A stretch of 64,000 nt of DNA from Microcyclospora pomicola (lineage: Eukaryota > Ascomycota > Dothideomycetes > Capnodiales): the NCBI GenBank assembly GCA_002786065.1, contig NHNY01000029.1:267219-331218 (forward strand), written 5' to 3'. The position numbers and the translations under genes are program-made. Below are positions 1,881-36,090 of the stretch, piece by piece (positions within the stretch are counted from its first letter, which is position 1; each line of letters starts with the position of its first letter). The notes below the pieces were generated by a model. It made no database searches. It was not told the DNA's origin and was given only the letters and a program-made list of their open reading frames with translations.

Positions 1881-2349
1881 CTGTGTGCTAGGAGATAACG
1901 ACTATGTTCCGGATAATAAGCATAAGCAGTAATGTACCTCGTAAGCAATGGCTTTAACGAAACCGAACCGACTGAACTATATCGTAGACTCGTGTGAAAA
2001 CTCACGTACTACGCTATATATATTGCCGACATTATGTTAGAAAGCTACTCTATAAACATAGCGCGAGCGATAATGTAGGCTAACCTCATTGCGGTAGATA
2101 AGCTCGGCCGAGTCGGCTAATAGCAGGCTCGCTAGTAACCGAATCTTCGAGCTTTGTTTATAGTACATCTTGAGCAATTATCTTCTTACTCTTAAAATAG
2201 AGTCTATATAACCTACATTAGCTGCAAAGTTGGTCGTCAAATGTAACCTATAGAGCAAGCTATTAGCTAGACTATATTTTGTTCCTTCTAGTGTATACAA
2301 ACATGCTATAGCGTATAGTGAAGATTCGGCGCAAGAACAGTAACTTAGT
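1881..2349. other. Degenerate intergenic DNA, no gene seen
   Basis: This stretch links the kinase remnant to the inverted NB-ARC copy. I see no readable domain on either strand; TA-rich, stop-dense sequence suggests RIP decay. Confidence 0.5.
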
Positions 2350-14904: not shown

Positions 14905-16210
14905 ATGCTGGGAACCTGGACAGCAAGCGGAGGCCGAGAGACGCGCCCTTTCAGTCAATATACGAGCGCCATCCAGCAGCCACGGTCGCTAAGACGTAAT
15001 AACGCTCGACGAGCATGCTATCTCTGTAGGAGAAAGAAGGTAACATGCCTCCCTCTTATACTTCAAGCTAGACCTAGGGCTGATTCGTTTGCAGCTCAAA
15101 TGCAGCGGTGAGGCTGGAAGCTGTAGTCGATGCTGCAGTTTGGCCACCAAATGCATTTATCCGCCAGACGTCGAGCAATACAGAGGCCGGGAACACACCG
15201 CACATCTCGTCGAAGCTCGCCCACAGCGTAGACATCGTTCTGATCCTAATCAGCACGTTGATGCTTCGCAAGACACATCGGCCTATGAGACGGCTCAGTC
15301 CAGCGTAAACGAAAATGAAGACACCCACAGGCTCAGCAGCCCGAAGCACAGAGCGGAGCAGGTTCCAACCGATGGCTGCGTAGATATCGATCACATCAAT
15401 GGTGCAGCTGGACGGGCACACGCAGGCACTGGGCTACTCGCTGACATACCAGGCACTGGAACATCGGAATCGGGTATGTTGGAGAGTCTATGAAGCGCCG
15501 AGCGTCGGCTTACACATGCAGTAGGGTTCGACAACTCCTTAGTTGAGAGCTTGATTGGAGATCCCTACTTCACGCCTCTGAGCACCAGGACATGGGCTCC
15601 GGGGCGTACGGAGACTACAAGGTCGTACAACCATGGTTCATCACCTACTTCATGGACCCTTGAGCCCGCAATGATATCAGGACCGGATGAAGGCGAGGAT
15701 TTCATGCTTTCCGACGACCACCCCTTTGAAGCATGTGAGTGCCTGCAAATAGCAGCGCAAGTCTTGCACGAAGTCAGTGCGCACGCCAGCTCCGCGAGTT
15801 CAGCAAGGAGGCCGAGTCTTAGTCAACATCTGGAACTGTTCGGCACCAGTACACGCCGTCTCCAATGTATAACACGTTGCACATCCTGCATGTTCCGTAC
15901 CGAGAACATGATGATCAATGCCATGGCATTGCAGCAGCTGTGTAGCGTGTGCGAGCACATGTCGAGCATACCGGAAATCGACCTCTATAACACAAGATCT
16001 CCAATCGACATCCGCATCGGACAGTCGCAGATTAATCTTGGGAATGACGGAGGTCAAATCTGTCGTGCGATCGTGGCTTCGCAGCTGAATGTCTTCACAA
16101 ACCTGGTGGAGGATTTCAAGATGATGTCGACAAGCATGCCCACCCCTTTCGCATTGCTTCAAGGGATCGGAAACAGAATTGTCAACATGCGTGCGGCGGA
16201 CCGTACATGA
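14905..16210 (+). CDS. Zn2Cys6 (AflR-like) pathway transcription factor
   Basis: Three exons (14905-15039, 15095-15473, 15522-16210) give 400 residues. Intron 1 (55 bp) splits the zinc cluster: exon 1 ends in ACYLCRRKK and exon 2 begins LKCSGEAGSCSRCCSLATKC, giving C-x2-C-x6-C-x6-C-x2-C-x6-C. Intron 2 (48 bp, GTATGT...CAG, phase 1) removes the in-frame TGA at 15491. The C-terminal part has features of the aflatoxin-regulatory-protein family: a CLQIAAQVLHEV helix, a Cys-rich stretch (CITRCTSCMF), ALQQLCSVCEHM, and a final helix ASQLNVFTNLVEDFK. Length is close to AflR-type regulators. It lies 471 bp upstream of the PKS on the same strand, so it is probably the cluster activator. The ATG is the first after an in-frame stop; an upstream exon cannot be excluded. 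Confidence 0.82.
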
Positions 16211-16681
16211 GGCTGCGGATGTTGATAGACCCAAAGCGACCGTCAAAATGCCCGAATATACCGAGCTACTTTTCGTCTGGGGTGCTTGTACATGCTCAGT
16301 AGATACGAGATAACGATACTTCAGCGCTTCTCGAGCAAGGCCACCCTAAACAATGTTCCAAGCGGCAAGTCCATGTCTATTTGCGGATGCATCCTTCCAT
16401 CATGCTGCTATAGAAATGCCTCAAATCCTGATCAGCTCCATCAGTCGGACTTCCCGTTAGAGCTTCCGAGCCAAGCGTCCAGCATGACTACATAGAGGGA
16501 AATACCTTCTCGTGCCACCAACAATCCTGCGGCGCACCTTTTACGGCAAGTCTTGATCTGGTGTCTCGACGAGGCTTAAGTACGTGCACACTATAAGAAA
16601 TAATATAGTCCTCAGTAGGGAAACCCTACACACCGCAGTCGAACGCCTTACCCCGAGCTCTAATCCGGGATATATCGAAAG
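16211..16681. promoter_or_regulatory. PKS promoter / intergenic region
   Basis: No gene supported. A TATA-like element (CACTATAAG) lies at about 16588-16596, roughly 85-95 bp before the PKS start codon, preceded by a small dyad CTCGACGAG near 16565. The region separates the regulator stop from the PKS start and is the natural place for regulator binding. Confidence 0.4.
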
Positions 16682-19600
16682 ATGGCACCACGCGTGGTCG
16701 ACCACGATGCTACTCAGCTATCTTCTGGCCAATCGGGTTCGCAGGTCGACGATCTCATTGCTGTCATCGGCATGAGTTGCAAGTTCCCAGGCGATGTTAA
16801 TTCTCCTACACGGTTGTGGGACCTTTGTAAGAGCGGTAGAAATGCGTGGTCAGAGATACCATCTGCGAGATTCAACGGCAAAGCTTTTCACGACCCAGAC
16901 TATAGAAGTCCCGGCATGGTACGACCGTATAGTACTCTCATGCTGGCCTAGGTTGACTCGTCACAGATCAATGCCGCAGGCGGACATTTCATCAACGAAG
17001 ACATCTCAAAGTTCGATGCCTCGTTCTTCAATGTCACCAACGAAGCTGCCAGTGTTTGTTGCTCATTCACGGATGATGCCCAGCATGAATGCTGACCGCC
17101 GGTTCATAGACCATGGACCCGCAGATCCGCCTGCAGCTCGAGTCGGTCTTCGAAGCTACCGAAGACGGTAAGTCATTAGTACGAGCTTCAGGAAGTCATA
17201 CTTATTAGATCAGCTGGACTTCCGATAGTGCGACTCGCAGGCAGTAACACTTCTGTCTTTGCTGGCTGCTTCACGCGCGACTACAACGATGGGCTCATCA
17301 GAGATCCTGACAACATACCACAGACCATTTTGACCGGAAATGGCGCATCTATGGTATCGAACCGGACCTCTCATTTCTTCGACCTCACCGGCCCTAGCAT
17401 GACCATCGACACAGCATGCTCAACGAGCTTGACCTGCCTACACTTGGCATGCCAGAGCCTGAAGTCAGGCGAATCTATCATGTCCATCGTCAGCGCATCA
17501 AATTTGATACTGTACCCACCCACCTTCGTTGCACTGGGAAACCTTGGGTAAGTGCTTGGCAGAAACTTGGACATACGCCATGCTAACAGGCATCGAGATT
17601 GCTGGGTGATTCGGGGAAGTGTTATGCTTGGGACGATCGTGCACATGGATATGGTCGAGGAGAAGGCATCGCTACGTTGATCATCAAGCCACTCAGCCGA
17701 GCAATCGCAGACAAAGACAATATTCGAGCTGTCATACGAGGATCAGCACTGAACCAAGATGGCAAAACCCCAACGATAACATCGCCGTCTGTATATGCGC
17801 AGATAGCTCTCATGCGCGACTGCTACCGAGCCGCTGGCTTGGATCCCAAGGATACTCCATACGTTGAAGCGCATATGACAGGTACGTATCTGGAGTACAA
17901 AAACCACGTCACGACAACACTGACGTCTATCAGGTACGCAGGTAGGCGACCCTGTCGAGGCCGAGGCCATCAGTACGGTCTTTGCAAGAGATCGTTCGCC
18001 CGGCGACCCAGTTTTGGTGGGATCAGTCAAGACAATCATTGGACATACTGAAGCGACGAGCGGTCTCGCAGGAGTCATGAAGGCTGTCCTTGCAGTGGAA
18101 ACGGGACTGATTGCGCCAAATGCGAACTTTGAACGACCAAATCCGGCCATTGATCTTCAAGGCTGGAATCTCAAAGTACGTCATGAGTCTGGGACCTCCT
18201 TTATCTCCAAACCTCATAGAGGAATTTATGGGTCTATATGGTACTTCACCGGATGTAATCACTGACAGCAACAGGTGCCAACACATCTTACCGAATGGCC
18301 GCAAGGTGCCGCAAGGCGGGTCTCGGTGAACAACTTCGGCTTTGGAGGCACGAATGCACATGTCATTGTGGAAGCATTCGACTATGGCAACACCCATAGG
18401 CAAATCTCGAATACAGCGGCCTCGACGAATGGCGTGAATGGCGTGATTGGCGTGAATGGCACGAGTGGCGTTAATGGAGTGGATGAAATGATTACAGCAG
18501 ACACCGAGCACGCCACAAAGACACTGAAAACCGCAACGACTGATTCTAATAGCCTTGGCAATGGAGTCAGCAACGAATCAGCAAACGGACTTCTTCCGCT
18601 CAACTTGAGATCGAATGACAGTACGAACGCGCCATCGAGAATCTTCATCCTCAGCAGTAAGGACAGCAGCGTCACTGACAGCATGCGTTCAAATCTTGCG
18701 CAGTGGCTTGATGATAAACGAAAAGCTGGAGAAGTAGTCGATCTTGCAAGCCTCTCGTATACACTGGCCGAACGTCGATCCTGGCTGCCATATCGCTCTG
18801 CAGTGGCTGCCGACAGTGTGGACAGTCTCATTACTGCACTGAATGAGACCAAGAAAGCGACCATCACCCGCGATCCTCCACGTATTGGCTTCGTCTTCAA
18901 CGGCCAAGGTGGTCAATGGTTCGCCATGGGTCGAGAACTGTTTGTCTACCCAGAGTTTGCACAAGCAATGCAGGAAGCCGACGCCATTCTCAGGGAATTG
19001 GGAGCAAGTTGGTCGCTGATCGGTAGGTTTGAGAATGCTTTTGGGATGAGCATATACGCTAACGTGTTCAAGATGAACTGCATCGAGACGAGAAGACAAC
19101 TCGAGTACAGCAGCCAGCATATAGCCAGCCACTATGCACAGCCTTACAGCTGGCATTAGTGAGGCTGCTCAAATCTTGGGATATTGAGCCTCACGCCGTT
19201 GTCAGTCACTCGAGCGGCGAAGCAGCAGCAGCGTATTGTGTTGGTGGTCTGACTTTCTCGGAAGCACTGGGCGTAATCTACTTTCGTGGTCTACTGACCC
19301 AAAAGTATCAGCATGCCTCTGACAAAAAAGGCGCCATGTTGGCTGCTGGAATATGCTCCTCTGTTGCAAAATCATACCTTGAACCTCTCGGAAGCGGCAA
19401 GGCAGTCATTGCCTGCATCAACAGCCCAGAGAATATCACATTCTCCGGCGACGAGGACACCATCATGGAGATCGATGAATTGCTCAAGCAGGATGGCCAC
19501 TTTACGCGCAAGCTCAGGGTCGAAGCTGCCTATCACTCACATCACATGCTTGCCATGGCTGACGAGTACATGGGTCTGTTGAGTCAGACGATCGAACCGA

Positions 19601-22600
19601 AACATGGCAAGATTGACAAGATATACGGTTGCCCAGTGACCGGTGGCCGTCTCTATGAGCACGGAGATCTGGGACCAGCTCATTGGGTCCAGAACCTAAC
19701 GCAGCCAGTGCTATTCTCACCTGCGCTTGAAAGCATCTGCCTTGCCAAGGAGGCATCCTCTTCAAAATCCATCGACTTCCTGATCGAAATTGGACCTTCT
19801 GGCACTCTTGCAGGTCCTATCAGGCAATGCTTTCATTCTCCCAAGTTGTGCGATCGCACTATAGCCTACGCTTCGTGCCTGACAAGAAACAGCAACGCAA
19901 TCCTTACGATGCAGCGAACCTTGTGCACTCTGGCATGTAGCGGGCAGGCTGTGAACCTGGGTGCCACAACACCGGAGTCGGACAAGGGTGAACGACGTGT
20001 GCTCAACGACTTGCCACCGTACCCTTGGAACCATACCACATCTTACTGGAAGGAACATCGAGTAGCGAGAGCGCATCGTTTCAGAACCGACGCGCCAAAC
20101 GAGCTGCTGGGCCGTCTGGAACCAGGATGCAATTCCTTGACACCCATATGGCGGACGTTCCTCAGATCTGCAGACTTGCCATGGCTACGAGATCATATCG
20201 TGCAGTCGGAGATGGTGCTACCCGGCGCCGGGTACATCAGTATGGCTATTGAAGCCATCAAGCAATTGTTGGAGCCTGTCGAAGAGACATGTGCAGGATA
20301 TATGCTGCGAAAGGTGGAGATTCGGCGTGCACTGATCGTACCAGACACAGACGAGGGCATCGAGGTGCAGCTTACACTGAGTCCCTGCGCAGACTCTGAG
20401 CTCGATGGGCGAGGATGGTGGACGTTTCACGTCTATTCGGTAGCGCACTTCGACAGTTCCTGGATCGAGCACAGCAGCGGATACATCGCAATGAAGCCAA
20501 AGGTATCAGTGACTGCAGAGAACAGTTTCGACTCCATTTCTTCGCTGTTTGAAGACAGATGGAATCAAGCTCAGTCCCGGGTCTGGAACAGGTTTGATTG
20601 TGAGGAAGTTTTCATGAAACTTCGAGAGAGTGGTATAGCGCATGGTCCTCTCTTCCGGAACCTGGTGGACATTCGAGCTAGTGCGCCACACTCATCGACA
20701 ACTTTCTGGATCCGAGACTGCAGAAGTGCGAAGATGGATCAGCCATCTGAACTTGTTGTGCATCCCACAACTCTCGACTCAATGTTCCAAGCGGCATATA
20801 CTGCACTAGAGCCTGATGCATTAGAGGGATGTATGGCCTTGCCACGCTCGATCGAGCAGATATACATCTCAGCAGACATTCCACGGGTTGGGAACAGTAT
20901 CCTTGAAGCCCGAGCAGAAGTCAGTACTCCTGGGCGGCGAGGGTTTTCCAGCACACTGTCGGTCGTTACCAGTGATGCCACAGGAAACGAGCCTGTAGCT
21001 CGCATCACGGGCCTTTTCTGCCAGGCTGTACCCAAGGGCTCAGTAAGAGAGCAGAATGACACTTCTCGTGTATGTTTCGAGTCGATATGGAGACCGGACT
21101 GGACATCCCTACCAAGTACTGCGCTCAAGCGACCTGTGACCTTCTTGGCCAATGCCTCTGAAGTAGAGACGGGCAAGAAAATCATCCGAGCAACGTATCA
21201 CTTCATACACGACACCCTGGCCAGACTTACAGCACATGATGTGCAGGCTTTGGACCCGCATCAGCACAAGCTGCTGGACTGGATGCGCATCCAGGATCGT
21301 CTCGGCGCTGAGGGAAAACTGGGAAAGAACAGCAGTTCATGGGCCAAGAGTAGCCAAGGACTCAAACAGCTCCTTCTGGATGAGGTGGGCGCCGCAAGCG
21401 TTAACGGTCGCCTGCTTTGCCGTATCGGTTTGTCTCTACTTGATATTCTGCGCAGGAAGGTGGCACCTCTTGAGCTGATGATGGGCGACAATCTACTGTA
21501 CGACTTCTACGACAATTCTCTACGCACTGCCCGCTCCGGTGCGCAGGTTGAGCATCTCGTAGCTCACTATACCCATAAGACGCCTCACGGACGCATCCTT
21601 GAGATCGGCGCTGGTACTGGATCGTGTACAACTCGCGTTCTCAAAGCGTTGTCCAGCAATGGCTCCACAACTGCCGCCTTACTATCACGTTACGACTTTA
21701 CTGACATAAGTTCAGGCTTCTTCGAGCAGGCTAGGACGAAGTATGCGGCATGGAATGATCTCGTCAACTATCAAAAGCTTGACATCGAGTCCGATCCCGC
21801 GGCTCAAGGATTCGAGTTGGGAAGCTACGACCTTGTTGTTGCGTGTCTAGTTCTCCACGCTACCAGGGATTTAGAATACACTATGGCCAACGTACGCAAG
21901 CTCATGAAGCCCGGTGCGAAACTGATCCTGGTCGAGACGACTCGGGATACAATCGACACTCAGCTCTGCTTTGGCACACTTCCCGGCTGGTGGTTGGGCA
22001 AGGATAGGGTCGACTCGCCGAACATCTCTGTTGAAGGGTGGCAAAGAGTCTTGAAGGCAACAGGTTTCTCGGGCGTTGACGTTGAGCTTCGCGACTTTGA
22101 AGACGAGAACGAATACTCAATCAGCACAATGTTGATCACAGCCTCTCAAATTCCAAGGTATCCAGAGACACTGTCAATTGTGACCACTGATACCAGTCCA
22201 CAGCAGTGGCTTCAGGGTTTTGCAGCGTTGCTTAGACAACAGACCGGCATCGACGTTTGTATCAAGTCGCTTGACTCGCTTCAAGGGGACCAGCATTGCA
22301 TCTTTCTTCTCGAAATGGAGCGGCCGCTGTTATCTTGCATAGACGAAACGACATTTGATCATTTACACAGGGCTCTCATCAGCGTACAAAGTGTGTTGTG
22401 GGTTACCAATGGCGACATTGCGAACGGAGTGAATCCTGACTATGCTCTACATGCCGGTCTGCTGCGGACCTTACGGCTAGAGGACCCTCGTAAGCGGCTT
22501 GTCGCTTGTGATCTAGCGACTGCCAGGAATCCCTGGACTGAAGCGAATACGAGCATCCTGGTCGAGCTGGTCAAGAAGTCCTTCAATCTTGAGCAGTCTC

Positions 22601-25028
22601 CTGGTGACATCGACACCGAATATGCTGTGAGAGATTCACAAATTCACGTCGCTCGCGTCTATGAGGACATGATCGCCAACGATGCTACAATGGCGCTCTC
22701 CAAGAGTACCGAGCCACGACTTCAAGCTTTTGCCGACCCCCAAATCCCACTACGCATTGAAATTGGCACGCCTGGCTTGATCGAAAGCCTGGTGTTCGTG
22801 GAGGACCAGACCATGTGCAAGCCACTCCCTGATGACCACATCGAGATCGAGCCAAGGGCTTTTGGCCTGAACTTTCGGGACGTGTTGTGCGCACTTGGCC
22901 ATATCGACGGAAATACCATCGGCTTCGAGTGCAGCGGCATCGTCACAGGCATAGGGTCGCATGCACACCAATCAGGACTCAGCATTGGAGATCGTGTATG
23001 TGCCATCATGCTCGGTCATTTCGGTACCAAGGTGCGTGTACACTGGACCTGGGCCGCACGCATACCAGAGACAGCAAGTCTAGAAGAAGCCGCAACAATT
23101 CCATTGGTGTTTGCTACCGCGCACCAAGCACTCGATGTATGCGCTCGTCTTCAGGAAGCCGAAACAGTGCTCATTCATGCTGCCAGTGGCGGTGTAGGTC
23201 AGGCCGCAATCATGATGGCGCAGCTTAAGAAGGCCAGAATTTTCGCCACGGTGGGAACCCAAGCGAAAAAGCAGTTCATACACGAGACTTATGGCATTCC
23301 ACTAGATGACATCTTCTCAAGCAGGAACGATTCTTTTGCCTCTGCAGTCATGGCCAAGACAGATGGTGCTGGTGTCGACGTTATCCTCAACTCTCTCGCC
23401 GGTAATCTGCTCAAGGCATCTTGGGAGTGCATTGCACACTTTGGGCGCTTCATCGAGATTGGACGGCGCGATATTGAGCAGGACAAAGCTCTGAGCATGC
23501 TACCCTTTAGCCGAGTAGCCACATTTGCGACCGTTGATCTGAACTACCTCGTCAGACTGCGCCCGAACATGGTCAAGCAGATGATGGAAGCGATAACGCA
23601 GCTATGGCGAGCTGGAGACATCAGAGCTGTGGCACCAGTGACCCAATTCTCGATGTCAAACATCACCGCTGCATTCCGATTGATGCAGTCTGGAAAACAT
23701 CTTGGCAAGATCATTCTTACTCCCCAACCCGGAGATGAGGTACAGGTATGCAGCTCAATACGTCGCACATCTTGTTGCTGGCAGGATACTGACCAGATTC
23801 CAGGTTCTGGCATCAGTCAAGCACTTCAAGTTTGCTCAAAACGCCTCCTACCTCATCGTTGGTGGTCTTGGTGGTATAGGTCAAAGCCTAGCACGATATC
23901 TCGTCAACATCGGCTGCCAGCATCTCATCATGCTATCCAGGTCCGCAGCACAGCACAGTGAAGCCGACAGTCTCGTTCTGGAGCTCAAGTCCCGTGGCTG
24001 TACTGTCAGCATCAGAAGTTGCGATGTTTCTGACACAAAGATGCTCGATGCTACAATTGACGACTTGAAAAGAAGCGGCGTACCACCAGTCCGCGGCGTG
24101 ATTCAAGCTGCAATGGTTCTACAGGTAAGTCTTGCCTCCGTGAGCTAGACTGAAGACTGATCGAAAACAGGATTCAATTTTTGAGACCATGGATCATAAG
24201 GGATGGCAAGCAGCTTTGAAGCCAAAGGTTGCTGCCACCTGGAACCTACATAATGCCTTCAAGGACCTCGACTTCTTTGTAATGCTCGCCTCGATCGCTG
24301 GAGTGGCGGGCAGCCCAGGTCAATCAAACTATGCGGCAGGCTCAGCCTTCCAGGATGCCTTTGCTCGATACAGAGCACGTCACAATCTCCCAGCCATTTC
24401 CATCGACCTTGGCTCCGTTAGCAATGTCGGCGTTGCTGCGAAGACCGAAGGGGTGATAGAGCGACTGAAGGGGCTCGGATTCGAGCCAATCGCGGAGCTA
24501 CAGACGCTGCGAATTATTGAGATGGCCATGTGTAGCCCGCCTCGATCCGTCGACTCCAGTCAGCTCATTACTGGCTTCACCTTGTGGGACGAGTCCATGA
24601 ACGTGGCATGGGCACCTGACCACCGATACTGGTCTCTCAAGCGGAACTCAGTGTCTGGACTTCAGCATGACGAGTCTGTACGTGCGAAAACAGGACCACT
24701 TGGCGATCTGAGAGACGTCATGATTGGCGCCAAGACGTGGGAAGAAGCAGTCCAGCGCTGTCTCGATGCTCTGATGCGCAAAATGCAGGGCATATTTGCC
24801 CTGTCAGCAGACGCGATAGACGCCTCTCGTCCGATGATCGAGTACGGAGTTGACTCATTGATAGCTGTAGAACTCAGAAACTGGCTCGCATTGTCGCTTC
24901 AGGCTGACGTCTCGATCTTCGACATCATGCAATGCGCCTCACTGCAAGTGTTTGCGGAGAAGGTGGTTGAGAAGAGCCCAATCATAAGTGAGAAGGGAAT
25001 AAAGAGGGCTGTAGAAACGGCCGAGTGA
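16682..25028 (+). CDS. Highly reducing type I polyketide synthase, KS-AT-DH-MT-ER-KR-ACP
   Basis: Ten exons (16682-16918, 16967-17053, 17110-17167, 17214-17547, 17598-17881, 17934-18175, 18275-19022, 19073-23745, 23804-24124, 24171-25028) keep frame and give about 2613 residues. [10 protein letters not shown] (Cys196), EAHMTGT (His331), GHTEA (His371). AT: GQGGQW, SHSSGE (Ser710). DH: H1038 in [10 protein letters not shown] and Asp1232 in LDSMFQ. C-methyltransferase: LEIGAGTGS near 1506. [11 protein letters not shown] near 2032. KR: GGLGGIG near 2240, Tyr2382 in SNYAAG. ACP: GVDSL (Ser2557). All main catalytic residues are present; no thioesterase or reductase follows, so release needs a separate enzyme. 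A low-complexity NGVNGV linker lies between KS and AT. It should make a reduced, methyl-branched chain. Weakest calls: the acceptor at 17597 (GAG) and donor at 17054 (GTTTGT). Confidence 0.9.
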
Positions 25029-25301
25029 GCAGGAAGTCAAAGAAGCGATGCCGATCACTCAATACTGCAGTAGCAGTATGTACGTCCAGAGATGGAAGTC
25101 TGACCACCTTATGATTAGAAGAATGTAGGCGTTGGCTCAGTATTCTCATTGAGTTGAGGGTTTATCCGGCTACTTACTTACACACCACCTTTGTTTCTTT
25201 CAACTCACTGTAATCGTCTGTGCTGGGTTGAAGCACTTCGTTGTCCACATTTGAACCCGACATCTTTTTGTTCACGAGGGCTGATATAGATACTTTAGCG
25301 T
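25029..25301. other. PKS 3' flank
   Basis: No gene is seen. The stretch probably holds the PKS 3' untranslated region and terminator; it ends at the target duplication of the TIR element. Confidence 0.4.
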
Positions 25302-25306
25302 GAGAG

Positions 25307-26058
25307 GACGGAGCTCAATTCCGCCATGTGCTAACACATCACAATCACAATCTCGAGATCTTAATCTCTAGAGATTATTTATTAACAACCTTATCTATAC
25401 TACTATATTGCTATTAGTTTGACCTATAAATCAATTCCCTTACTATTTTACTATTATACTTACTACTATACTTACTACTATTCTATTAATAGCTTTATTA
25501 GCTACTAATCTTAAGCTATTTTAGGAATTTATTATAGATTCTATTAGTAATAACTATATCTATATAGAGGTTATAGACTAATTAAAAGAGCTATATAGTA
25601 TAGAAGTAAATCTCTATATACTCTAGTAGAGACTAATAATATAAAGTATAGTATTACTACTTTTAGAACTACTAGATATATCTAAGTTATCTACTTTTAT
25701 ATTATACTATTTTATATTCTCTAGTTTATAGATAAATAGAATATATATCTTTTAAGCTATAAGAGTTATAATTAGCTTACTATAAGATTATTAAGAGTAC
25801 TATAAGTAAAGCTAGATACTTAATTAGTATATTATTATATTTACTATAGTACTTATTATAGTACTTATAATATCTTATAATAGATATTTATTAAGATCTA
25901 TATAGAGATTATCTTTATAATATAGCTACTAAGCTAGATCCTACTAGTCTTAAGCTATATACTTATAGAGCTATTAATAATATAGTAGTAAGTCATTAAT
26001 GTTATTGATGATAGATGATCTAAATGTTCTAAGATACATAGCGGAATTAAGCTCCGTC
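25307..26058. mobile_element. 752-bp TIR element, AT-rich, non-autonomous or RIP-dead
   Basis: A 22-bp terminal inverted repeat (GACGGAGCTCAATTCCGC at the left end; its complement with two C/T changes at 26037-26058) bounds a very AT-rich interior with no readable protein. The flanks carry a 5-bp direct repeat GAGAG (25302-25306 and 26059-26063), a plausible target-site duplication. The interior is heavily stop-filled, so it may be a MITE or a RIP-erased larger transposon. It sits between the PKS and the rest of the cluster. Confidence 0.7.
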
Positions 26059-26255
26059 GAGAGCGAGCCCGGCTAGCGCCTTCTTTCGAGTCGCTGCGCT
26101 ACACCACTTTCGATTAAATCATAGACACTTCTTCACTCGCCTCATCTACTGACCTGAACGATCACGTTGCACACCTCTATCTGATGAAGCGATGCCACCA
26201 CAACGGCGCATATTGCGTCGACTAGAGCGGAGCTGCGCGTAGCTGGTTTGATGTC

Positions 26256-27240
26256 ATGGAAGCCACTTTCTGGAACAGGTGGGAATGGATCCATGTGGAG
26301 GGCAAAGGCATGGCATCACCAGCAACTACGAAAATCGCTGACATTACTGCCCCTGCTGAGACAGCCGCTGTCGACGAATCTTTAGACGAACACGAAGTTT
26401 GGCAACATGACCAGAAGAGCGCTCTCTCTTGGACCGTTTGCAAGGTCTCAGGGGTTATTGGCTTGAGACTTGAGCGCTTCGTCGCAGCAGAAGTATGGAC
26501 ACATCTGAAGATGACTTGGGGTCCATACGAGAGAGAGGTCGAGGAACGCTTCCAAGATTACCCCTTCGATGGCGATCGCGACCAGATCAAGGAGCGGACA
26601 GCTGTCTTTGAGTTACTCGTTCGCGAGCATCAAAAGATCGGCATGCCACTCCGCTATGACCAACAGCTCCACATCTTCGTCAAGAGACTGGCTCCTTTCT
26701 TCACGACTTGAGCTCTGATTGAGTGACGAACACTGGAAAAGCAAGACTCATCTCACATGACTGATGATTAGCTTCAAGAACTGATCACTTCCATACACGC
26801 AGAAGCCAAGTCTCCCATTGAGTCGTCCTCTGCAAGCCACACCACTCCTTCCTCCAAATCGAACTCGGCCAAGTTCAGCTTGCCAAAGAAGAAAAAAACA
26901 AAAGCAAGGCTAGCAACAAGATCAAAGACGCTTTTGCACCCGACGGCATACTCATTCCAGTCTGCTCCTACTGCAGCAAAGGACGACATTCTGTTGACGA
27001 ATGCTATACGAACGATTTTGAAAAGAGACCTCAGTGGATGATAGATCAGCAGAGCAAGAAAGATACATCCTCTGGCACAGATGCTCCACAACACAAGGGT
27101 TTCGCTGTTAGTGCTTTTCACAGTACGACTGAAGACTGGAATTATGACACTGGCGCCTCAGAGCAGCAACTAAGGCAGGCGAGTGTAGGAGCTCCCTGCT
27201 CCATTCTTCTACTACCAATTTCCACGAAGTCGATATGAAC
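26256..27240 (+). pseudogene. Ty1/copia retrotransposon gag-protease remnant
   Basis: The open piece 26256-26711 (151 residues) resembles a copia Gag: a W-Q-H-D-Q-K-S-A-L-S-W-T-V block and F-V-A-A-E-V-W-T-H-L-K. After its stop, another frame carries a Lys-rich linker and a CCHC zinc knuckle, CSYCSKGRHSVDECY, at about 26965-27010, then W-N-Y-D-T-G-A-S-E, the retropepsin active-site region, at about 27137. At least one frameshift and a stop divide these parts, and integrase and reverse transcriptase are missing. It is not RIP-saturated, unlike the flanking deserts. Whether the 151-residue piece is still expressed is unknown. Confidence 0.62.
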
Positions 27241-27834
27241 GAAGTTATTGACAGCAGATGACATGACTTGAGTGCCTCGGTCTGAGCACAGGGCAAGCCA
27301 ACAGTTTAAGCAGAAGGAACTTGTTGGATACTCGTTTCTAACTGCTGCTTCTCACACTACCTACATCAGTCCTCGTGGAAAAGGTATTGTCCGAATCTGG
27401 TATGGACAACGAAGTGTGCCAAGCCATTATGGACGCTTGTAGTCAGTGAGAAGTGTTGTTTGAGGTTATAGGTTGCTTGATTGATCCTATCTGACAGTGG
27501 GGATACCATGGTCTTATGTCTCACTCGGGGTCACAAGGTGTGGGTTTAGGCGCACTAACAATTTCAACACATCCGACTTAAGCTGCCTCTTGCATCTGTG
27601 ATCCTCCTTCTCCGAGGACCCAATCATCAATTGCAGGATGACCTTCTTGGACGTGGACGATATGGCAGCCTATGCAGCCATATAGGAGTCGAGGGACATG
27701 ACAAGAGGATGCAGCTACCTGGTGAGATGCCAGAGCGCAGCAGAAATGAACTTTTGATACAAATGATACTAGAACTGCCTGCAGCTGCTCTCATATGAGC
27801 CGTACTCGGAAGCTTTCCCAATCCCAATGATTCC
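27241..27834. other. Intergenic, no gene seen
   Basis: No coding sequence supported on either strand. It holds decayed sequence after the copia remnant and the 3' flank of the exporter gene. Confidence 0.4.
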
Positions 27835-29640
27835 TCAATTGACACCCCTGTTTGCAGCCTTGACGCTCTTCCACTCACATACCAAAGCTCCTACGATGCT
27901 GAGTGTGGCCATGACGACTGCGGTATACCATGATTTTATGATAGCATCATTGAATGCTTCGAGTATTCGCATAAGGAGCGGTGCTGGAACTTGGTCCCTA
28001 TAAGCGGTTGCGCCCTGAGCAATCGCAAACTTGGCAGCAGTCGATCCAAGTATATCGGTCAGTTCTGCGAGCAGTTTGTTGAAGAAGACGCTCTGAGCGA
28101 TTCCTATCATGATGGCTCCACCAAGTGATTGCATGAACGTTATCAGTCCGATTCCAGCCGGTATGTCTTCTGGCGGGAGCACGGCCTGAACGACTACCAG
28201 TGGTGCCTGCGCAATGAGGCCAAAGCCAAGACCGTAGAGGACTTGATAGCCAATCCACTCGGGTCTGGTCGTGCTAACATTGAAAAGAGTCAGACAGCCG
28301 GCACCAGTTGCGCTGAGTATGGATCCTAGGATCAAGACAGGGTTGTAGTATCCAACCACAGTGATGAAAGCGCCTCCGAGCAACGAAGCCAGAACCGCCG
28401 GCAAGATTGCGGCCAGCATGTAGATACCAGACTCTTGTGCTGATACGCCCAACACGCTTTGGAACCAGACGGGAATGAAGTACACCAAGATCCATGCAGC
28501 GCCACTGTTACAGAAGGCGAACCAGCATGCGCCTGCTATAGTCCTCTGCCGAACGAGTCGGCGCGGAATTGTGGCGTGCTTGTCGTTCCAGTACTGTTCT
28601 GCAACAAAGCCCAGCAGGCAGGTGATGGCTATCACCAGCAAAGCGATGATGACACCGCTATTCCAATCATGCTTGGATCCTCCCCAGGTCAGCACAAGGA
28701 ACAGACAGATTACACCACCTAGCAAGATCAGCGAGCCCAGCGGATCTGTTTCCATGATCTTTCCATGGAGTCTAGTTTGACGTTGCAATATTCGAGGCGG
28801 TGATTTGTATAATAGGATGACCATCAGAACAGCAACTGCACCCATGGGTAGATTGATCCAAAACTAGGTGATGGTCAGTGAGGGTATATCGGACTTGAGG
28901 TTCCTGACTCACACACCAGCGCCATGAGACATAGGTGCTCAAAGCGCCGCCAACTGGTGGACCTGCGACCAGTGCAATGCCAAAGATGCCACTGATCACA
29001 CCGAGGAACAACGGTCGCTTCTCAAGCGGCACAGCGAACCCAACGATGGTGAAACTTCCACCAACGACACCAGCGCTTCCAATGCCAGCGACGGCTCTTC
29101 CCACAATAAGGGATACAGAAGTGGGCGCTGCGGCACAGATTGTAGATCCGATCTCGAAGACGACAATCGACGTTACATATACCCACTTGATGGGATACAG
29201 GGCATAGAACTTGCCAAACGGAAGCTGAGTTGCGCAGATGGTGAGTGGATAAACGCCGGCGTACCAGGCAATATCGTCAGTGCTGCCAAAGTGATCGGTG
29301 ATGGTTGGGATGGCTGCTGCCAGGATCGTGGTATCCTAAGATTGCTCAGTCACGGCCGGTCGGGCGACGACAACAGATGTGCCATACGTACCAGCGCTAC
29401 AGGCAACACTGCCAAGCACAGTGCGATTGTGATACTAATCAGAGCTGGCAGAGCTGGGTACTCAACTTCAGCGACTTCGGATCCTCTTGGCAAAGGACCA
29501 GCTTGTGTGGACGTCTCATTCTTTTCATTCGTCATCGTCGTCCTTTCAGAGGGAGGTGATTCCCTCTCCCTGCTGTTGGTGATGGTCGTCTCGAGCGCGA
29601 TCGCGCCTTGCTGTTCGTTCATAGCTATTGATCTGGACAT
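27835..29640 (-). CDS. MFS exporter, DHA2-like 14-TM (toxin efflux type)
   Basis: Three exons on the minus strand (29640-29392, 29335-28913, 28863-27835) give about 566 residues. Introns are 56 bp (GTACGT donor) and 49 bp (GTGAGT donor), both phase 0. The N-terminal 60 residues are hydrophilic. Family landmarks: LDTTILAAAIPTITDHF at the first exon junction, V-G-R-A-V-A-G-I-G-S-A-G (motif C-like region), GPPVGGALS, and W-R-W-C-F-W-I-N-L-P across the second intron; about 14 hydrophobic segments follow. Length and motifs fit fungal efflux pumps such as those in aflatoxin or gliotoxin clusters. It probably exports the cluster product across the plasma membrane. It is divergently transcribed from the second regulator over 636 bp, suggesting shared control. 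Confidence 0.85.
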
Positions 29641-30276
29641 TCGATAAGATCCAAAGCTGGAGATTATGTTGAGAAGTTGTACCTTACAAGAAGTGTCGCT
29701 CGCACGGTAATGCTATGGTCAGTAGAGTGGAAAACAGGGGGAAGAGCAAGTTCTGGTTGCCTGGAACACCATGTTGGATCGAGAAAGTGGTCGGGCAATC
29801 CTTCGGGTGCACCAAGGTATAGATTGGCGATGAATGCACTTCCCCTGCTTTGCACTACGGCGAATGGAGACATGCTCATCGCGGGCTACGCACTACGATG
29901 AATGGGGGCATCCTCATTACTGTCTACGCACTACGACGAATGGAGGAATTGGCGTCTCATGCATACTGTATGTAGCACTTGGGGCAGAGATCGAATGAAA
30001 CTTTCGAGCTCTGACCAACAGCCAAGCCCAAATCTTGCCTCCCATTCCACTCTATCCACATCATCCTTGCAATCAAGAAGAACACTCTTTTGCAGCCCAT
30101 CTTGTACGTGAAGGAGTCAGGATGTCTTCCGCATGCATACTATGATAAGATCCCATCGGAGGTCAGTATCTTGAGAAGGCGAGACTCACAGATCGCAACC
30201 CAGAGGCCACAATAGTTGTATCTCACCTACTGCATCTATTGCTGTTAACCTCGATAGTGTCACTGCATCACGCAAC
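29641..30276. promoter_or_regulatory. Divergent promoter between exporter and second regulator
   Basis: No gene supported. The region separates two genes transcribed away from each other and holds the 38-bp tandem repeats at 29852-29965. It probably contains both promoters. Confidence 0.5.
29852..29965. repeat. Three tandem 38-bp repeats in the divergent promoter
   Basis: Units start at 29852, 29890 and 29928, exactly 38 bp apart. Each opens with GCACTACG, two variable bases, then GAATGG; the tails diverge. The regular spacing (near 3.6 helical turns) and the shared core suggest repeated protein-binding sites rather than a coding repeat. A weaker related GAATGCACT lies just upstream near 29832. 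Confidence 0.65.
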
Positions 30277-31452
30277 ATGGCCGAAGAATGCTGGATACGT
30301 GGTAGAGCATGCCAACGATGCTATACTCAGAAGCTGAAATGCAGAAGGTCTTCAGGACAAGCCATCTGTGTGCGTTGTGCTCGACTTCGCACACAATGCC
30401 GGCCGCGACCACGGAGGGACCGTTTTGAAAGAGACAGCACCGTCAACCTTGCTTCGCTGCATAGCATCGACTCAAATATCACACAGACACTCTCCTTTGA
30501 GCCTTCGTCGAACACCGAAGTCAGCGATATCTACCCATTGACCCTCCTGAGGCCGGCGGCGTCATCAACAGACACACCAATGAGTCTCTCTGACCTTGAT
30601 TTTACGGCATCAGGAGACAGTGACGGTTGGCAAGACTCGTTCATGCTGCCGACATTTCCAGCAGATACGTTGGCAGCCTTGGCCACGCATCAAGCACCAA
30701 ATCTAGATCATGCAGATCTGCCTGTGTTGCTTGACCTCGGAGCGCAATCTGCCGACAGCAAGCAATCACCTCTTACTGAATGGATCAATAATATTGCTCG
30801 ACTCAACAGCAGCATCTGTGCATTCCAGCAACGACCAGATGCTCGGGATGAGTTGACCCAACCTGTCAAATCGGAGTTTGAGAGGATATTCCACATGGCT
30901 GTGACCTTCTCAGCACTTGTATCTGCCCTACACGTTGAGCGTCCAGGATCAGCATTTCCTCGATCCCCCAGTGGAAGCAGCCAAACACCTTGGTATACTC
31001 CAGCTTTGTCAGACCTAACACCAACGAAACATCAAGTAACGCAGATCCTGAGCGACACGTCCAACATCCTGCTTTTGACGTCAGTTTATGGTCGACTACT
31101 TGGTCTCTTCCACGCTATCATCAGTCGTGGCCAGTCCAATCCGACCTTGCCTCAATTGGGTCTGAGTCTAGGTCTTTTTGATACTGGCGAGAGGCCTGTG
31201 GTGCAGAGTTTCATCTTAGTCAACGTGATTGAGCTGTTGGTCCGTCGTATGGATCACATGCTGGAACTGGCCAATGATGAGGCAGACATCTCGGGCTTAC
31301 AACATTTCTGCTTCCGCAATGGTCGTCGGCAACACGAGGATCGAAGCAGAGGATTGAGCATGGTCCTAGATGTGACGAGAAAGCAGCAAAAGGATCTGCT
31401 TGAGACGATTGCTAATCTAAGGACTGAACTCCTCTGTGCCACCAGCTGGTGA
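30277..31452 (+). CDS. Second Zn2Cys6 transcription factor (AflR-like)
   Basis: A single open frame of 391 residues. The zinc cluster is near the N terminus: ACQRCYTQKLKC, then C-V-R-C-A-R-L-R-T-Q-C after an eight-residue loop (C-x2-C-x6-C-x8-C-x2-C-x6-C), followed by a basic R-P-R-P-R-R-D-R linker. The rest is helical with a Leu-rich core (I-L-L-L-T-S-V-Y-G-R-L-L-G-L-F and V-I-E-L-L-V-R-R-M-D-H-M), as in fungal secondary-metabolism regulators. The start ATG is preceded by CAAC. Downstream, another frame at 31451-31549 reads E-A-A-R-M-I-K-A-N-L-R-N-L-W, similar to the end helix of such regulators, so the true C terminus may differ. It shares its promoter with the exporter and probably regulates the exporter or the releasing enzymes. 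Confidence 0.82.
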   Translation: MAEECWIRGRACQRCYTQKLKCRRSSGQAICVRCARLRTQCRPRPRRDRFERDSTVNLASLHSIDSNITQTLSFEPSSNTEVSDIYPLTLLRPAASSTDTPMSLSDLDFTASGDSDGWQDSFMLPTFPADTLAALATHQAPNLDHADLPVLLDLGAQSADSKQSPLTEWINNIARLNSSICAFQQRPDARDELTQPVKSEFERIFHMAVTFSALVSALHVERPGSAFPRSPSGSSQTPWYTPALSDLTPTKHQVTQILSDTSNILLLTSVYGRLLGLFHAIISRGQSNPTLPQLGLSLGLFDTGERPVVQSFILVNVIELLVRRMDHMLELANDEADISGLQHFCFRNGRRQHEDRSRGLSMVLDVTRKQQKDLLETIANLRTELLCATSW

Positions 31453-32307
31453 GGCAGCGAGGATGATCAAGGCGAACCTTCGTAACCTTTGGCTCCATCT
31501 GCTTTCAAGCTTCGGTACTGTAGCTAGCCCACGCAGAAGATGCAATTAATGTTGAGTCGGGTCCTCTGCTTTGAGTGCTTGCAAGATGGCACTTGGTTTG
31601 ATCTCAAACGGTCTGATCTTGATCTCGGCATCTCACATATATTGTGCGAATGGTGTGGTCCGCATTTAGATCGATCCAATTGTGCAGAAAAGAGTTCGGA
31701 CGAGCTTGGTATCCAGACAGATTGGCTATTGTCGCACACTGAATTACGTATCGACCAACAACTACAACCTCAATCTGGCATTGCGCATGTATAAGCTGAA
31801 GAACACGCCGAGAGCTTTCAATTGATGCAGCAACCACCTCGGTCGGGTCTTGGACCGATCGAGATGCCGACAAGTAAAGCTCTGAGAGCATCTAGAGAGG
31901 GCATGACCACGCGGAGTGCAAATCTGGAGATACCTCTGACCGAGGTGGTATCTGAAGCCTCTGAACACGATCCATGCTCCCGAATTGGGTCTCCGACGCA
32001 GATTGTTCCTAGTGTCTCTCGCATTCGGCCAAAAGGCGTATATGGTCATGTGACCGGAACTCCATCGCTGGAGGCTTGACTTTTATCCTTTTACAGCAGT
32101 CCGTACTTTTGCCGCGTAGCCATGCGTACAACAAGATGCAGGTGCGGATATTTGATCCTTCAGATGTTCGGACTACAGTAGGATGCAAGTACGGACAGTT
32201 GTTCCTCCAGAACGACCGGAAGCTGCATCGGAGCAAGACTGTGCTGCCGTGATTTCGTGTATAAACGGTCGTGCTGACAATGGAAGTCTCCGCGGAGGCC
32301 CAACGCC
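31453..32307. promoter_or_regulatory. Intergenic region upstream of the oxoamine synthase
   Basis: No gene is supported. Near 32133-32150 and 32176-32196 an imperfect direct repeat occurs (ATGCAGGTGCGGA and ATGCAAGTACGGA). The 3' part is likely the promoter and leader of the oxoamine synthase gene. Confidence 0.35.
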
Positions 32308-34862
32308 ATGGAGGTTATCAGTGATATTGTTGTACGAGCTGCAGATGTCCCGGCACGTTACGTGCAAGGTGGACCGGCGAAGATCGATTTTGCAAGACCA
32401 AGAAAGCTGCAGGCTTCTCTCGAAGAGAGAATTCGAACGGTTATTTGGTTCGTGTCAATTGTATTGACGCAGCTATGGCACGACCTATTGGAACGTCCTC
32501 GATCGTTGGGGACTATTACTATGACCGATCTCGCAGCGCGACTTCTCGTACGTCAGAAAGCATCTTTCATGAGCATTACTGACTTATTGACAGTTCTTGA
32601 ACATGGCTCGTGGAGTACCGCGCCTTGCTACTGGAGGCCCTTATGAGAGCATCACGATCCTCGAAGTGCCTTTGAACAAGGGGAACACATATGAGACAGA
32701 TGCAGATGTCTTCAACCTCAAAACAAGACAGATCATCAATTGTGCCAGTAACAACTATGCTGGCTTCTCAAGACTCGAAGGCGGTTCCGGAGAGCTAATC
32801 GAGCATACTATCAAGAAGCTACCATTTGCACCAGGTCCTCCTGAACTGGAAGACACGCTCAAGGCAGAATGTCTCAAACTCATGGGATTTGAATCTTGCG
32901 ACTTCATGCCATCTGGCTTCAGCTGCAATCTTCTCGCCTTCCGAGCAGTCCACCAGTATGCTCAATCTCAATCAAGAACATGCATATTCTTGTGCGATGC
33001 AGACTGCCATAACTCACTGCTCACTGGAGCATATACCAATGGCAGAGTCAAGGCTGCAGTATACAAATTCAAGCACAACGACCTCACTGATCTGGAGGAA
33101 CGACTACAGATACTGAAGCAGCAGCTACCAGATGCCTACGTATGTGTCGTTGTTGAGGGTATCTACAGTCTTGAGGGTACCTCGGCACCAGTCCCAGCAA
33201 TTCTGGCACTCAAGAAGATCTACAATTTCTGCTTGCTAGTCGACGAAGCACACTCTTTCATGTCTCTTGGCCACTCTGGACGTGGATCCTTCGAACATTG
33301 GCAGGACCTGGGATATGAATGTCCACTCGATGAGTGTAATATCATGACCTGTATGTTTTCGAAATCTGCTGGCTGCACTGGTGGCGTAGTTCTCGCACGC
33401 GGTGGTCTTGCAGCGCAGCTCAAGATAGAGGGTACGAAGGTGCTAGATCGTGGCGCAGAACGACTTGCAACATGTATCCTTGCTCGTCTGCTCAACATCT
33501 TCCGCAAGCCAGAGCTGATTCAACGACGTATGGCTATTGTCAAGGAAAAGAGCTTGTACGCTTCTCGCATGCTGAAAAAGGCTGGTTATCAGGTATTGTC
33601 CTTCGATGGTAGTCCTATTATCTGCTTTCCACTCGGCAGTCTTCGTCAGATTGCACAATTTCAGAAAGACATCCACCGCTCAGGTCTCGCTGTCGCAATA
33701 GCTATCCCTCCTGCAACAACGGTCTGGGACTCGAGAGTCCGTATGAGCATTTTCGCGACAATTCCCTGGGCCGATATCCGGACTGCTCTCCGGCTACTGA
33801 TTCAGACTGGCGTCAAATTCAACCTCACAGGAATTAGGAGCGCTGATCTGTATGCGGAGAAGCTTCCTGCTGAAGAAGACTTCACTGTTGTTGCTGAGAA
33901 GTATCGTTGCGTTGATGAAGAGCTTATGCGTCATGTCGACGATCTTGCTTTGAGGCAACCTCGCTCATCTGGTGTCGGCAGTCATCCAGCAGTCGTCCAG
34001 TCTGCTCTGCAGGCTCTGAGGCGACACGGTATCGGTCCTTGCTCCGCTCGTTGGTTCTATGGTTCCTTCGACACCTACATCGTTCTTGAGCAACGACTGG
34101 CTAAGCTATATCCTTCCTTGACGCAGCAAGCTGGCCCATGCAGAGGTAATTTCAAGCGTCGATACATTTAGACTGAAGCTGACCCTTACAGCAATGGTTT
34201 GTGGTGATGCCGATGTCACCATTGGCTCTTCTTTTGTCGCTCGCTGCGCGGTCTCGATGTATACCAAGTCGACGCACTTTGTCCTCGTCAAGCGTACAGC
34301 TGCGCCCTTCATCCACGAATCTATTGCCGCTACAAAGGAATCGCTAAGCAGGCCACTGATCTACTACGATTCAGAAAGCGATATCTGTCAACTTCTCGAG
34401 CAGCAGCTTCCGAGAACCCGTCCAAGCATGGTAACCCTTTACCTGGAAACCGTCAATGCAGCCGGTCAGCCACTCGACATCATTCCTATCCTCAAGACGC
34501 TCGGCAAGCTCTCAAGCTCGAAGTTGAAACGAGCATGCCTCTTCCTCGACGACCGCAATGGTCTAGGTGTTCTGGGAGCGAAGCGTTTGGGTTACTTGAA
34601 CTACTTGGAGGACGTGTACGGAAAGAATGTTTTCACGGACAATCTTGGTGCCTACTCGAAGAATATCGAAATCGATGTGGCAGGCTCCTGGTACAATAGT
34701 TTTGGACACCAAGGTGGGTATGTCATCGGAGCGGGCACTGTCATCGAATCGCTCACCTCGAATGCACGAGCGTACTTTTTTTCGACACCACCAATGCCCA
34801 TGCAAACTGTCATGTCAAACAAGGCACTTGAATTGCTGCAAGGAGGAGTTCTTCAAGTATGA
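32308..34862 (+). CDS. Fused LCB2-LCB1-type alpha-oxoamine synthase (Fum8-like polyketide release enzyme)
   Basis: Exons 32308-32547, 32594-34145 and 34192-34862 (introns 46 bp each; GTACGT and GTAATT donors) give about 820 residues, near the roughly 840 I recall for fumonisin Fum8. Residues 45-60 form a membrane segment (VIWFVSIVLTQLW). The first half (about 90-430) is LCB2-like: D-E-A-H-S-F-M-S-L-G-H-S-G-R-G and the PLP lysine in FSKSAG (Lys337). The second half is LCB1-like: R-R-H-G-I-G-P-C-S-A-R-W-F-Y-G (the conserved Cys kept), F-L-D-D-R-N-G-L-G-V-L-G, and N-S-F-G-H-Q-G-G with no lysine. Such enzymes condense an acyl thioester with an amino acid, with loss of CO2. With a PKS that lacks a release domain, its likely substrate is the ACP-bound chain. 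A final extra exon after the GTATGA at 34858 cannot be excluded. Confidence 0.88.
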
Positions 34863-35007
34863 ATTGGGCTCACCGATGGATTGATAGCATGATTTCAGTT
34901 CAGTAGATGGAACTGTAGCAAAACTGTACGGCCAAACAATTTCCACTCTATCAGGCGCGTCTTGGCTAGAACTCGCTCACCACTCCATCCGAAGTTTTAC
35001 TCGACTG

Positions 35008-36090
35008 CTATCTTTTTGCTGCCTCTTCCTCCACTATGCTGTCGAAATGTATCCGGACAATCGGCCAGACGAGCGACATCAACAGTCCTAATAGCCAGTC
35101 CGATATCGGCCTGACCTTCGGACTGCAACCACGCATGTTATTCAACAGCAGTCTAGTCTGAAAGTCTGTTGTCACGAAATACTCTCCACGATCCAAGCCC
35201 TTCAATATCCTTTTAGCGACCTCCTTCGCATCCATACCACCACCGTTACCCTCGCTTCCCTCGAGTCGCTTGCACAAATCTGGCTTCTTTTCTTGCTCGC
35301 GATAAAAGCTGTCGGTATAGATAGTTCCGGGGAAGGAGCAGTGTACACGAATATTGACTGTCGAGCTGTACAGAAGAGCTTCTTGTCGAAGCACATCTGC
35401 TAGTGTACGAATTGCTGCTTTGGAAGGACAATATGCGTCGTATCCAGGCAAGGATATCAACGCTGCTGTACTGGCTGTAAAGACTAGGTGACGGTCTTTG
35501 AGTGCTGCTGGAGCTGTCAAGCTGCATGCAATCCAGCGCTTCCACACTGCTTGCGCCAGGTATGTGGAAGAGTGGTAGTTCTTGTCCATACACTGGCGCA
35601 TGACGTGTCCAGGTATGTCACAGAAGAAGCCAAGTTCGTGCTCAGTACCACCAGCAACACAGAAGACTGCATCCGGTACATCATTGTCATGCAGTTGAGA
35701 GATGTACTCTTCCACCTGTGTACTCGTTAGTAGGTAAGTAGTCGCGATCGCTCTCTCTCACCGACCAGCGTGTTTTCGAGCAGATCTAGGCTCTTGGCGG
35801 CGATGCGCTGATCTTGAGAGATTCTGCTCGAGTTCAACAAGTTTTGAGCTTTCTTCAGAACAGCCTGGTCGCGAGCCAAGATTGTAACATGGGCTCCTGA
35901 ACGACCGATGAGTTGAGTGACGATCTCTCTTGCTGGAAGTTTTGCCTACCACGAGTCACCAATTGTAGTGCAAGCTCTCGTCCAAGTCCCCTTGAACCTC
36001 CAGCAACGACGACATGCTATTTGTTCGTCAGCTGCAATCCTTGAAGTCTCCAAACACACACACCTTCTCTCGAACATCAAAGTGACCCAT
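35008..36090 (-). CDS. 3-ketosphinganine-reductase-like SDR (Fum13/Tsc10 type)
   Basis: Minus strand, four exons (36090-36064, 36016-35950, 35896-35766, 35715-35008), about 310 residues. Exon 1 encodes nine residues, MGHFDVREK; exon 2 continues HVVVAGGSRGLGREL (TGxxxGxG-type NADPH site). Exon 4 has VPDAVFCVAGGT, Ser157 in FTASTAALIS, Tyr170 and Lys174 in YCPSK, and a hydrophobic C-terminal anchor (WLLGLLMSLVWPIV), as in ER-bound 3-ketodihydrosphingosine reductases. The predicted role is reduction of the 3-keto group left by the oxoamine synthase. It is convergent with that gene, with 145 bp between stops. The third intron needs a GTC donor to keep frame; the better GTGAGA site two bases on would break it, so RNA data should settle this. 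Confidence 0.82.

Follow-up and report, generated by a model that had tools for sequence, protein, structure and literature searches.

Sphinganine-analog metabolites (SAMs) interfere with sphingolipid synthesis and include food-relevant mycotoxins and possible drug leads. Their clusters have been defined by the joint presence of genes for a PKS, an α-oxoamine synthase (AT) and an SDR, the PKS being placed in Reducing PKS Clade III (Kim 2020, PMC7376913). In the Fusarium clusters SAM3 and SAM5 these three are described as the sole known enzyme genes, and SAM5 was linked to AOD (2-amino-14,16-dimethyloctadecan-3-ol) through species distribution and deletion of the PKS gene; putative SAM clusters were also reported from 24 other genera (43 species), among them members of the Dothideomycetes and Lecanoromycetes (PMC7376913). 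In fumonisin biosynthesis, chain release is PLP-dependent and carried out by the oxoamine synthase (PMC4936691), and self-protection genes encoding ceramide synthases and a CoA ligase are part of the Fusarium FUM clusters (PMC11796371). Residue 580 of Fum8 has been tied to the choice of the amino acid: it is Ala in producers of the alanine-derived B fumonisins and Val where glycine-derived C fumonisins and AAL toxins are made (PMC7376913; PMC12821873), and site-directed mutagenesis in Fusarium showed that this residue decides between alanine and glycine (PMC12821873). Outside Fusarium, the PKS8-2 cluster of Mycosphaerella (Pseudocercospora) fijiensis contains a PKS, an α-oxoamine synthase, a ketosphinganine reductase, an MFS gene and a transcription factor (PMC4936691; PMC8550591); its genes were expressed during banana infection, and silencing is described as having shown no clear role (PMC8550591). 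The sphingofungin cluster of A. fumigatus is reported to combine a PKS lacking a thioesterase, an aminotransferase, a 3-ketoreductase and an MFS transporter.

The window analysed here, the whole stretch of 64,000 nucleotides, is the right end of a 331,218-base contig in a genome of 23.37 Mb and 58 contigs. It contains six gene models at 14905-36090 and two relics, listed here with coordinates and strand:

14905-16210, forward strand: TF1, a Zn2Cys6 regulator with an approximate 3' end, its zinc cluster split by an intron at 15040-15094
16682-25028, forward strand: HR-PKS with the order KS-AT-DH-MT-ER-KR-ACP and no TE, from Pfam, motifs and introns (16919-16966, 17054-17109, 17168-17213, 17548-17597, 17882-17933, 18176-18268, 19023-19072, 23746-23803, 24125-24170)
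26226-27238, forward strand: apparent retrotransposon Gag relic between the PKS and the MFS gene, with a zinc knuckle read by eye and no Pfam match
27835-29640, reverse strand: MFS exporter gene, introns 29391-29336 and 28912-28864, both in phase
30277-31452, forward strand: TF2, a Zn2Cys6 regulator with an approximate 3' end, CX2CX6CX8CX2CX6C by eye and its ATG checked
32308-34862, forward strand: fused LCB2/LCB1 α-oxoamine synthase (OAS) of the Fum8 family, introns 32548-32593 and 34146-34191
35008-36090, reverse strand: 3-ketosphinganine-reductase-type SDR, introns 36063-36017, 35949-35897 and either 35765-35716 or 35761-35709
37487-38077, forward strand: second MFS, a remnant with an in-frame stop that ends at the edge of an AT-rich region

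An earlier note on this DNA had placed a compact sphinganine-analog cluster at 14905..36090, and the six gene models confirm it as real, with the ATG of TF1 (14905) and the ATG of the SDR (36090) agreeing exactly with those limits. The components it had named were recovered one and all: an HR-PKS with MT and ER and without a release domain, by Pfam domains and motifs; a two-half LCB2/LCB1 synthase, both halves of which were covered in tblastn by full-length Fum8-family proteins (7/7); an SDR of the 3-ketosphinganine-reductase pattern, by its motifs and its match to TSC10; an MFS exporter, with Pfam MFS_1 in both halves; and two Zn2Cys6 regulators, recognised mostly by motif reading. TF1 has CX2CX6CX6CX2CX6C, read by eye across its in-phase intron 15040-15094, and a Zn_clus match under the Pfam cut-off (17.7 vs 21 bits); for TF2, whose motif was likewise read by eye, there was no Pfam match at E≤0.001. 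The genes and their domains and families stand in open frames with canonical introns, and the residue diagnostic for the amino acid is present. PKS, OAS and SDR thus occur together in one cluster, which is the SAM definition, and we consider it very probable that the locus is a SAM cluster in which the HR-PKS chain would be released by the OAS with an amino acid and reduced at C3 by the SDR, with reactions, amino acid and product class taken from the Fum8/Fum13/AOD precedent. The cluster is apparently intact and an example of an already described cluster type; no description of this particular cluster was found in the open-access literature covered by the search.

The borders of the cluster look natural because the flanks are RIP-like, TE-bearing and poor in genes. 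The composite RIP index runs from -0.7 to -0.9 across the genes, the Gag-like relic and the stretch at 36.1-38 kb. In the flanks, where reverse-transcriptase and hAT pieces were found, it reaches +0.8 to +1.5; GC is about 31% at 38-50 kb, and two 10 kb loci further left each contain a single ORF of at least 120 aa. Inside the island lies a 1.2 kb gap at 25029-26200 with a GC of 32% and a RIP index of +0.67. Such a setting invites the reading that the cluster is decaying or silent, its genes open and non-functional, stranded amid transposons. The RIP-like flanks and gap, the TE relics and the stop-bearing MFS fragment at the right edge speak for it, as does one KS His motif of the PKS, which reads EAHMTG. 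The usual form of this motif is EAHGTG. Nevertheless, the frames of all three enzymes are long and open, their motifs are conserved and their introns keep the frame, and the RIP index over the genes resembles that of ordinary coding DNA, so that we regard decay as unlikely. A GT-AG intron was predicted at each of the 17 modelled frame breaks (46-93 bp; one in TF1, nine in the PKS, two in the OAS, three in the SDR and two in the MFS gene), always keeping the frame, and a broken PKS frame was therefore rejected; the intron candidates 17052-17109, 17548-17589 and 35761-35716 were discarded as out of phase.

The PLP Lys of the OAS is residue 258 of the 32591 frame, and this Lys, the Asp and the His were invariant in all 22 aligned rows of alignment A1 (the window and 21 matches). 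The Pfam match covers the LCB2 half only, with none on the LCB1 half; in the PDB the best relatives of the OAS are SPT subunit 2 followed by bacterial SPTs, and the LCB1 half is weakly similar to SPTs and their relatives (best E 2e-5). The OAS ends well short of the usual LCB1 end. A truncated LCB1 half was considered and rejected, since the seven Fum8-family proteins align to about the same endpoint. Among the 120 listed of 138 matches, identity was 64% to P0001, 50% to Teloschistes, 49% to Coccidioides, 44% to Fum8 and 42% to ALT4. We calculated a tree from 20 of the 138 matches (120 listed), the window OAS and four genes of the same genome; short fragments and many metagenome matches were left out of all trees, and long branches were flagged for the genome's own genes in the OAS, SDR and PKS trees and for two Xylographa rows in the OAS tree. 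The window OAS falls with the Fum8 family and apart from the LCB2, LCB1, ALAS and KBL-like genes of the same genome. It pairs with P0001 (100/100), and both belong to a set of 13 rows (98/100) that also holds lichen fungi, Coccidioides, Xylogone and three Aspergillus species. A separate clade (99/100), from which the window OAS is excluded, unites Fusarium Fum8, ALT4, Bipolaris and Cylindrodendrum, with proteins of A. niger and A. sclerotiicarbonarius beside both groups; the root is unsure because the outgroup branches are long. The expectation of the earlier note that the OAS would group with Fum8 hence holds for the wider family and fails for the Fum8/ALT4 clade, an outcome that the note itself had named beforehand as counting against its reading.

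This placement bears on whether the locus could be the remnant of a fumonisin or AAL-toxin cluster that lost its tailoring genes. The three core enzyme types are the same, namely a fused OAS of the Fum8/ALT4 family, a 3-keto SDR and a PKS of the same domain order. However, the OAS lies in the other, 98/100 set, the PKS groups with PKSs that do not bear FUM names (best 120 of 2373 matches; tree), and the pieces scanned at 14.9-38 kb revealed no tailoring gene, in contrast to the FUM clusters, which have such genes. Compared with the shared core of 11 genes given for FUM clusters (PMC12821873), the pieces scanned at 14.9-36.1 kb show just a PKS, an OAS, an SDR, an MFS gene and two regulators, and no ceramide-synthase or CoA-ligase gene for self-protection was seen in the cluster; the ceramide-synthase domain PF03798 occurs at three loci of the genome, none of them on the contig of the window. 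With the OAS outside the Fusarium Fum8/ALT4 clade and tailoring genes nowhere seen, a remnant was rejected as the best reading, and we hold it to be very improbable.

As a SAM-type enzyme, the OAS allows a prediction of the amino acid. The position equivalent to Fum8-580 is Ala486 of the 32591 frame. In A1, where two rows do not cover this region, it is Ala in 16 of 20 readable rows (window included), Val in three (ALT4, Bipolaris, Cylindrodendrum) and Pro in one Xylographa sequence. Given this Ala, which the window OAS shares with the B-fumonisin producers (PMC12821873), the substrate is most likely L-alanine, by analogy, and the predicted product a 1-deoxy, methyl-branched 2-amino-3-ol. Human SPTLC1 and the LCB1 encoded elsewhere in this genome align across the same loop, where the position is Pro135, by count two residues past Cys133, and C133 mutations allow human SPT to use alanine or glycine (PMC3794620). 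Since the Fum8-580 position aligns near SPTLC1 Cys133, the amino acid is most likely selected by an interface loop that belongs to the short LCB1 half, as far as the alignment can tell. The enzyme set is just PKS, OAS and SDR, and a single residue gives a checkable amino-acid prediction.

The SDR has the features of a TSC10-type enzyme, i.e. the glycine-rich nucleotide motif (AGGSRGLG), the YxxxK site (in YDAYCPSK) and sequence kinship to TSC10, its sole PDB match at E≤1e-8. Of the C-terminal anchor that had been ascribed to it, the hydrophobic tail is present, read by eye only. The OAS and SDR genes are convergent and 145 bp apart. In seven pairs of OAS and SDR matches the two contigs are of identical length (SDR/OAS: P0253/P0013, P0256/P0007, P0266/P0006, P0279/P0003, P0289/P0016, P0246/P0023 and P0275/P0028), three of the seven with consecutive locus tags, and because of these pairs the two enzymes look like a recurrent neighbouring pair. 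We also calculated a tree from 37 of the 84 SDR matches, the window SDR and the KSR-like gene of the same genome. In it the window SDR pairs with P0241, and the family stands apart from the KSR-like gene. The seven OAS-paired SDRs occur on several different branches, so that the tree by itself gives no proof of a SAM-only clade.

Elsewhere in the genome lie genes for an LCB2-like protein (701 aa frame, 32%, labelled by eye), for LCB1 (580 aa frame, 38% along a short stretch, confirmed against SPT1 structures) and for a KSR-like protein (35%, labelled by eye). The genome search found no further close copy of either the OAS or the SDR of the window. Judged by these separate LCB2, LCB1 and KSR genes, the cluster is not primary metabolism. 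It is accordingly hardly credible that the OAS and SDR supplement the fungus' own sphinganine synthesis as a supply or self-protection module next to a PKS making another product, even though in A. fumigatus SphA is active as an SPT and SphF rescues a yeast tsc10 mutant (PMC10936153), since the genome has separate sphingolipid genes, Ala at the specificity position, against Pro in the own LCB1, predicts alanine over serine, and a PKS lacking a release domain depends on another enzyme to free its chain. The OAS family tree, the SDR-TSC10 kinship, the second LCB2/LCB1/KSR copies and the SAM definition give good support to the prediction of a sphinganine-analog product.

In the SAM pathway proposed here, the HR-PKS would build a reduced, C-methylated acyl chain, which would be kept on the ACP because the PKS has no release domain. 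The fused OAS would form a PLP carbanion from the amino acid, most likely L-alanine, which would attack the ACP thioester, and decarboxylative condensation would free the chain as a 2-amino-3-ketone. Reduction of the C3 ketone to the alcohol by the SDR would give a 1-deoxysphinganine-like, methyl-branched long-chain base without a C1 hydroxyl, which the MFS protein may export, and the two Zn2Cys6 proteins would regulate the cluster genes. The proposed product is similar in type to AOD, and the AT of SAM5 is likewise a predicted alanine user (PMC7376913). The earlier note had suggested a simpler and possibly new product, but SAM3 and SAM5 have no known enzyme genes beyond the three, so that simplicity alone is no sign of a new product. 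The sphingofungin cluster differs in its extra P450, monooxygenase and acyltransferase genes, and SphA, by the published description, is a homodimeric SPT to which aminomalonate and the polyketide precursor serve as substrates; a PDB chain named sphA (490 aa) matches the window OAS weakly (E 3.5e-7).

In the PKS, the domains KS, AT, DH, MT, ER, KR and ACP were all matched by Pfam when the open pieces were searched separately, and the motifs sought are present (KS Cys, two His motifs and Lys; [21 protein letters not shown]; [40 protein letters not shown]). Downstream of the ACP there is neither a thioesterase nor a reductase. The domain order is that of Fum1, as had been pointed out, but KS-AT-DH-MT-ER-KR-ACP is common among HR-PKSs and so says little about kinship with Fum1. 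Among the best 120 of 2373 matches, the PKS of Peltaster fructicola has 71% identity over 96% of the query and that of Zasmidium cellare 79% over 72%; next come metagenome proteins, Talaromyces rugulosus (49%) and Colletotrichum (~46-47%). The name Fum1 is absent from these 120, whose names were partly shown. By the names of the nearest PKSs, the source looks like a fungus of Capnodiales or Mycosphaerellales type with a small genome. In a quick SH-aLRT tree of 32 of the best 120 matches (2373 found), the window PKS and two PKS pieces of the same genome, the window PKS groups with the Zasmidium, Peltaster, Talaromyces rugulosus and Colletotrichum PKSs. Within this set (best 120 of 2373 matches; tree) it is not near a known SAM PKS, and the A. 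filifer PKS P0231, whose contig equals in length that of the OAS P0012 and which is the sole such case among the 120 listed, lies far from it. Zasmidium, Peltaster, Talaromyces rugulosus and Colletotrichum are missing from the 19 organism-named of the 30 Fum8-family OAS matches listed, which is weak evidence because the names are those of representatives of 90% clusters and only the candidates sharing most words were scored. The available text of the Peltaster genome paper gives 15 secondary-metabolite enzyme genes and does not mention fumonisin.

The PKS8-2 cluster shares with the window its PKS of the same domain order and its four other gene types, and differs by an extra sphingolipid hydroxylase and by one transcription factor where the window has two (PMC4936691). 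Its PKS was placed in a clade with Fum1p, at 40.6% to Zasmidium cellare (PMC4936691), versus 79% for the window PKS, and on the published description the two PKSs are therefore probably not orthologs. SAM PKSs are not always mutual closest kin, the SAM5 PKS being nearer to a non-SAM PKS, which gives a precedent for separate recruitment (PMC7376913). We thus put forward, tentatively and as somewhat less than an even chance, that the window holds an independently assembled SAM pathway, in which the recurrent OAS-SDR pair was joined as a portable 'release and reduce' cassette to a PKS of the Zasmidium/Peltaster/Talaromyces rugulosus/Colletotrichum lineage and yields a new 1-deoxy long-chain base derived from alanine. 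Were the PKS a separate recruit, the locus would show in what way release-and-reduce cassettes spread among polyketide pathways. By sequence, the novelty lies in the deep OAS branch within the Fum8 family together with a possibly independent PKS.

In the remainder of the window, no Rfam family at the gathering threshold, no tRNA gene and no double telomere hexamer was found. The MFS remnant at 37487-38077 is probably a pseudogene.

The ketosynthase histidine motif of the cluster PKS reads EAHMTG (window position 17866); in fungal ketosynthases this motif is usually EAHGTG. Outside the cluster, a Fum8-family oxoamine synthase and a 3-ketosphinganine-reductase-type SDR are also encoded under consecutive locus tags in Coccidioides immitis, as CIMG_01207 (P0003) and CIMG_01208 (P0279), respectively. 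Coccidioides is included in the SAM1 PKS tree of Kim 2020 (PMC7376913). A search of the genome holding the window (G000) for the ceramide-synthase domain identified three loci, which are located on contigs C23, C11 and C1, and none on the window's own contig.

At its right edge the cluster is followed by the remnant of a second MFS transporter interrupted by an in-frame stop, which may represent a former cluster member that has since been lost. The remnant lies at the border of an AT-rich, RIP-like desert (38001-64000) reaching the contig end, which carries the reverse-transcriptase, Gag-like and hAT pieces listed below.

Features of the two flanks
2346-3621 and 6691-7966: inverted repeat arms, 1276 nt each, 93% complementary, spacing 3069 nt
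37487-38077: second MFS transporter remnant
52665-53072, minus strand: reverse-transcriptase piece
55076-55516: Gag-like frame, read by eye
63516-63998: hAT dimerisation piece, at the contig end

In the left flank, each inverted repeat arm contains a 117-aa frame, neither of which matched a Pfam family. The same RIP-like flank carries two arrays of repeats with a 126-nt period (18-1073 and 8237-9922), whose copies, matched to a 300-nt reference (7 and 12 in register, respectively), are 63-87% alike.
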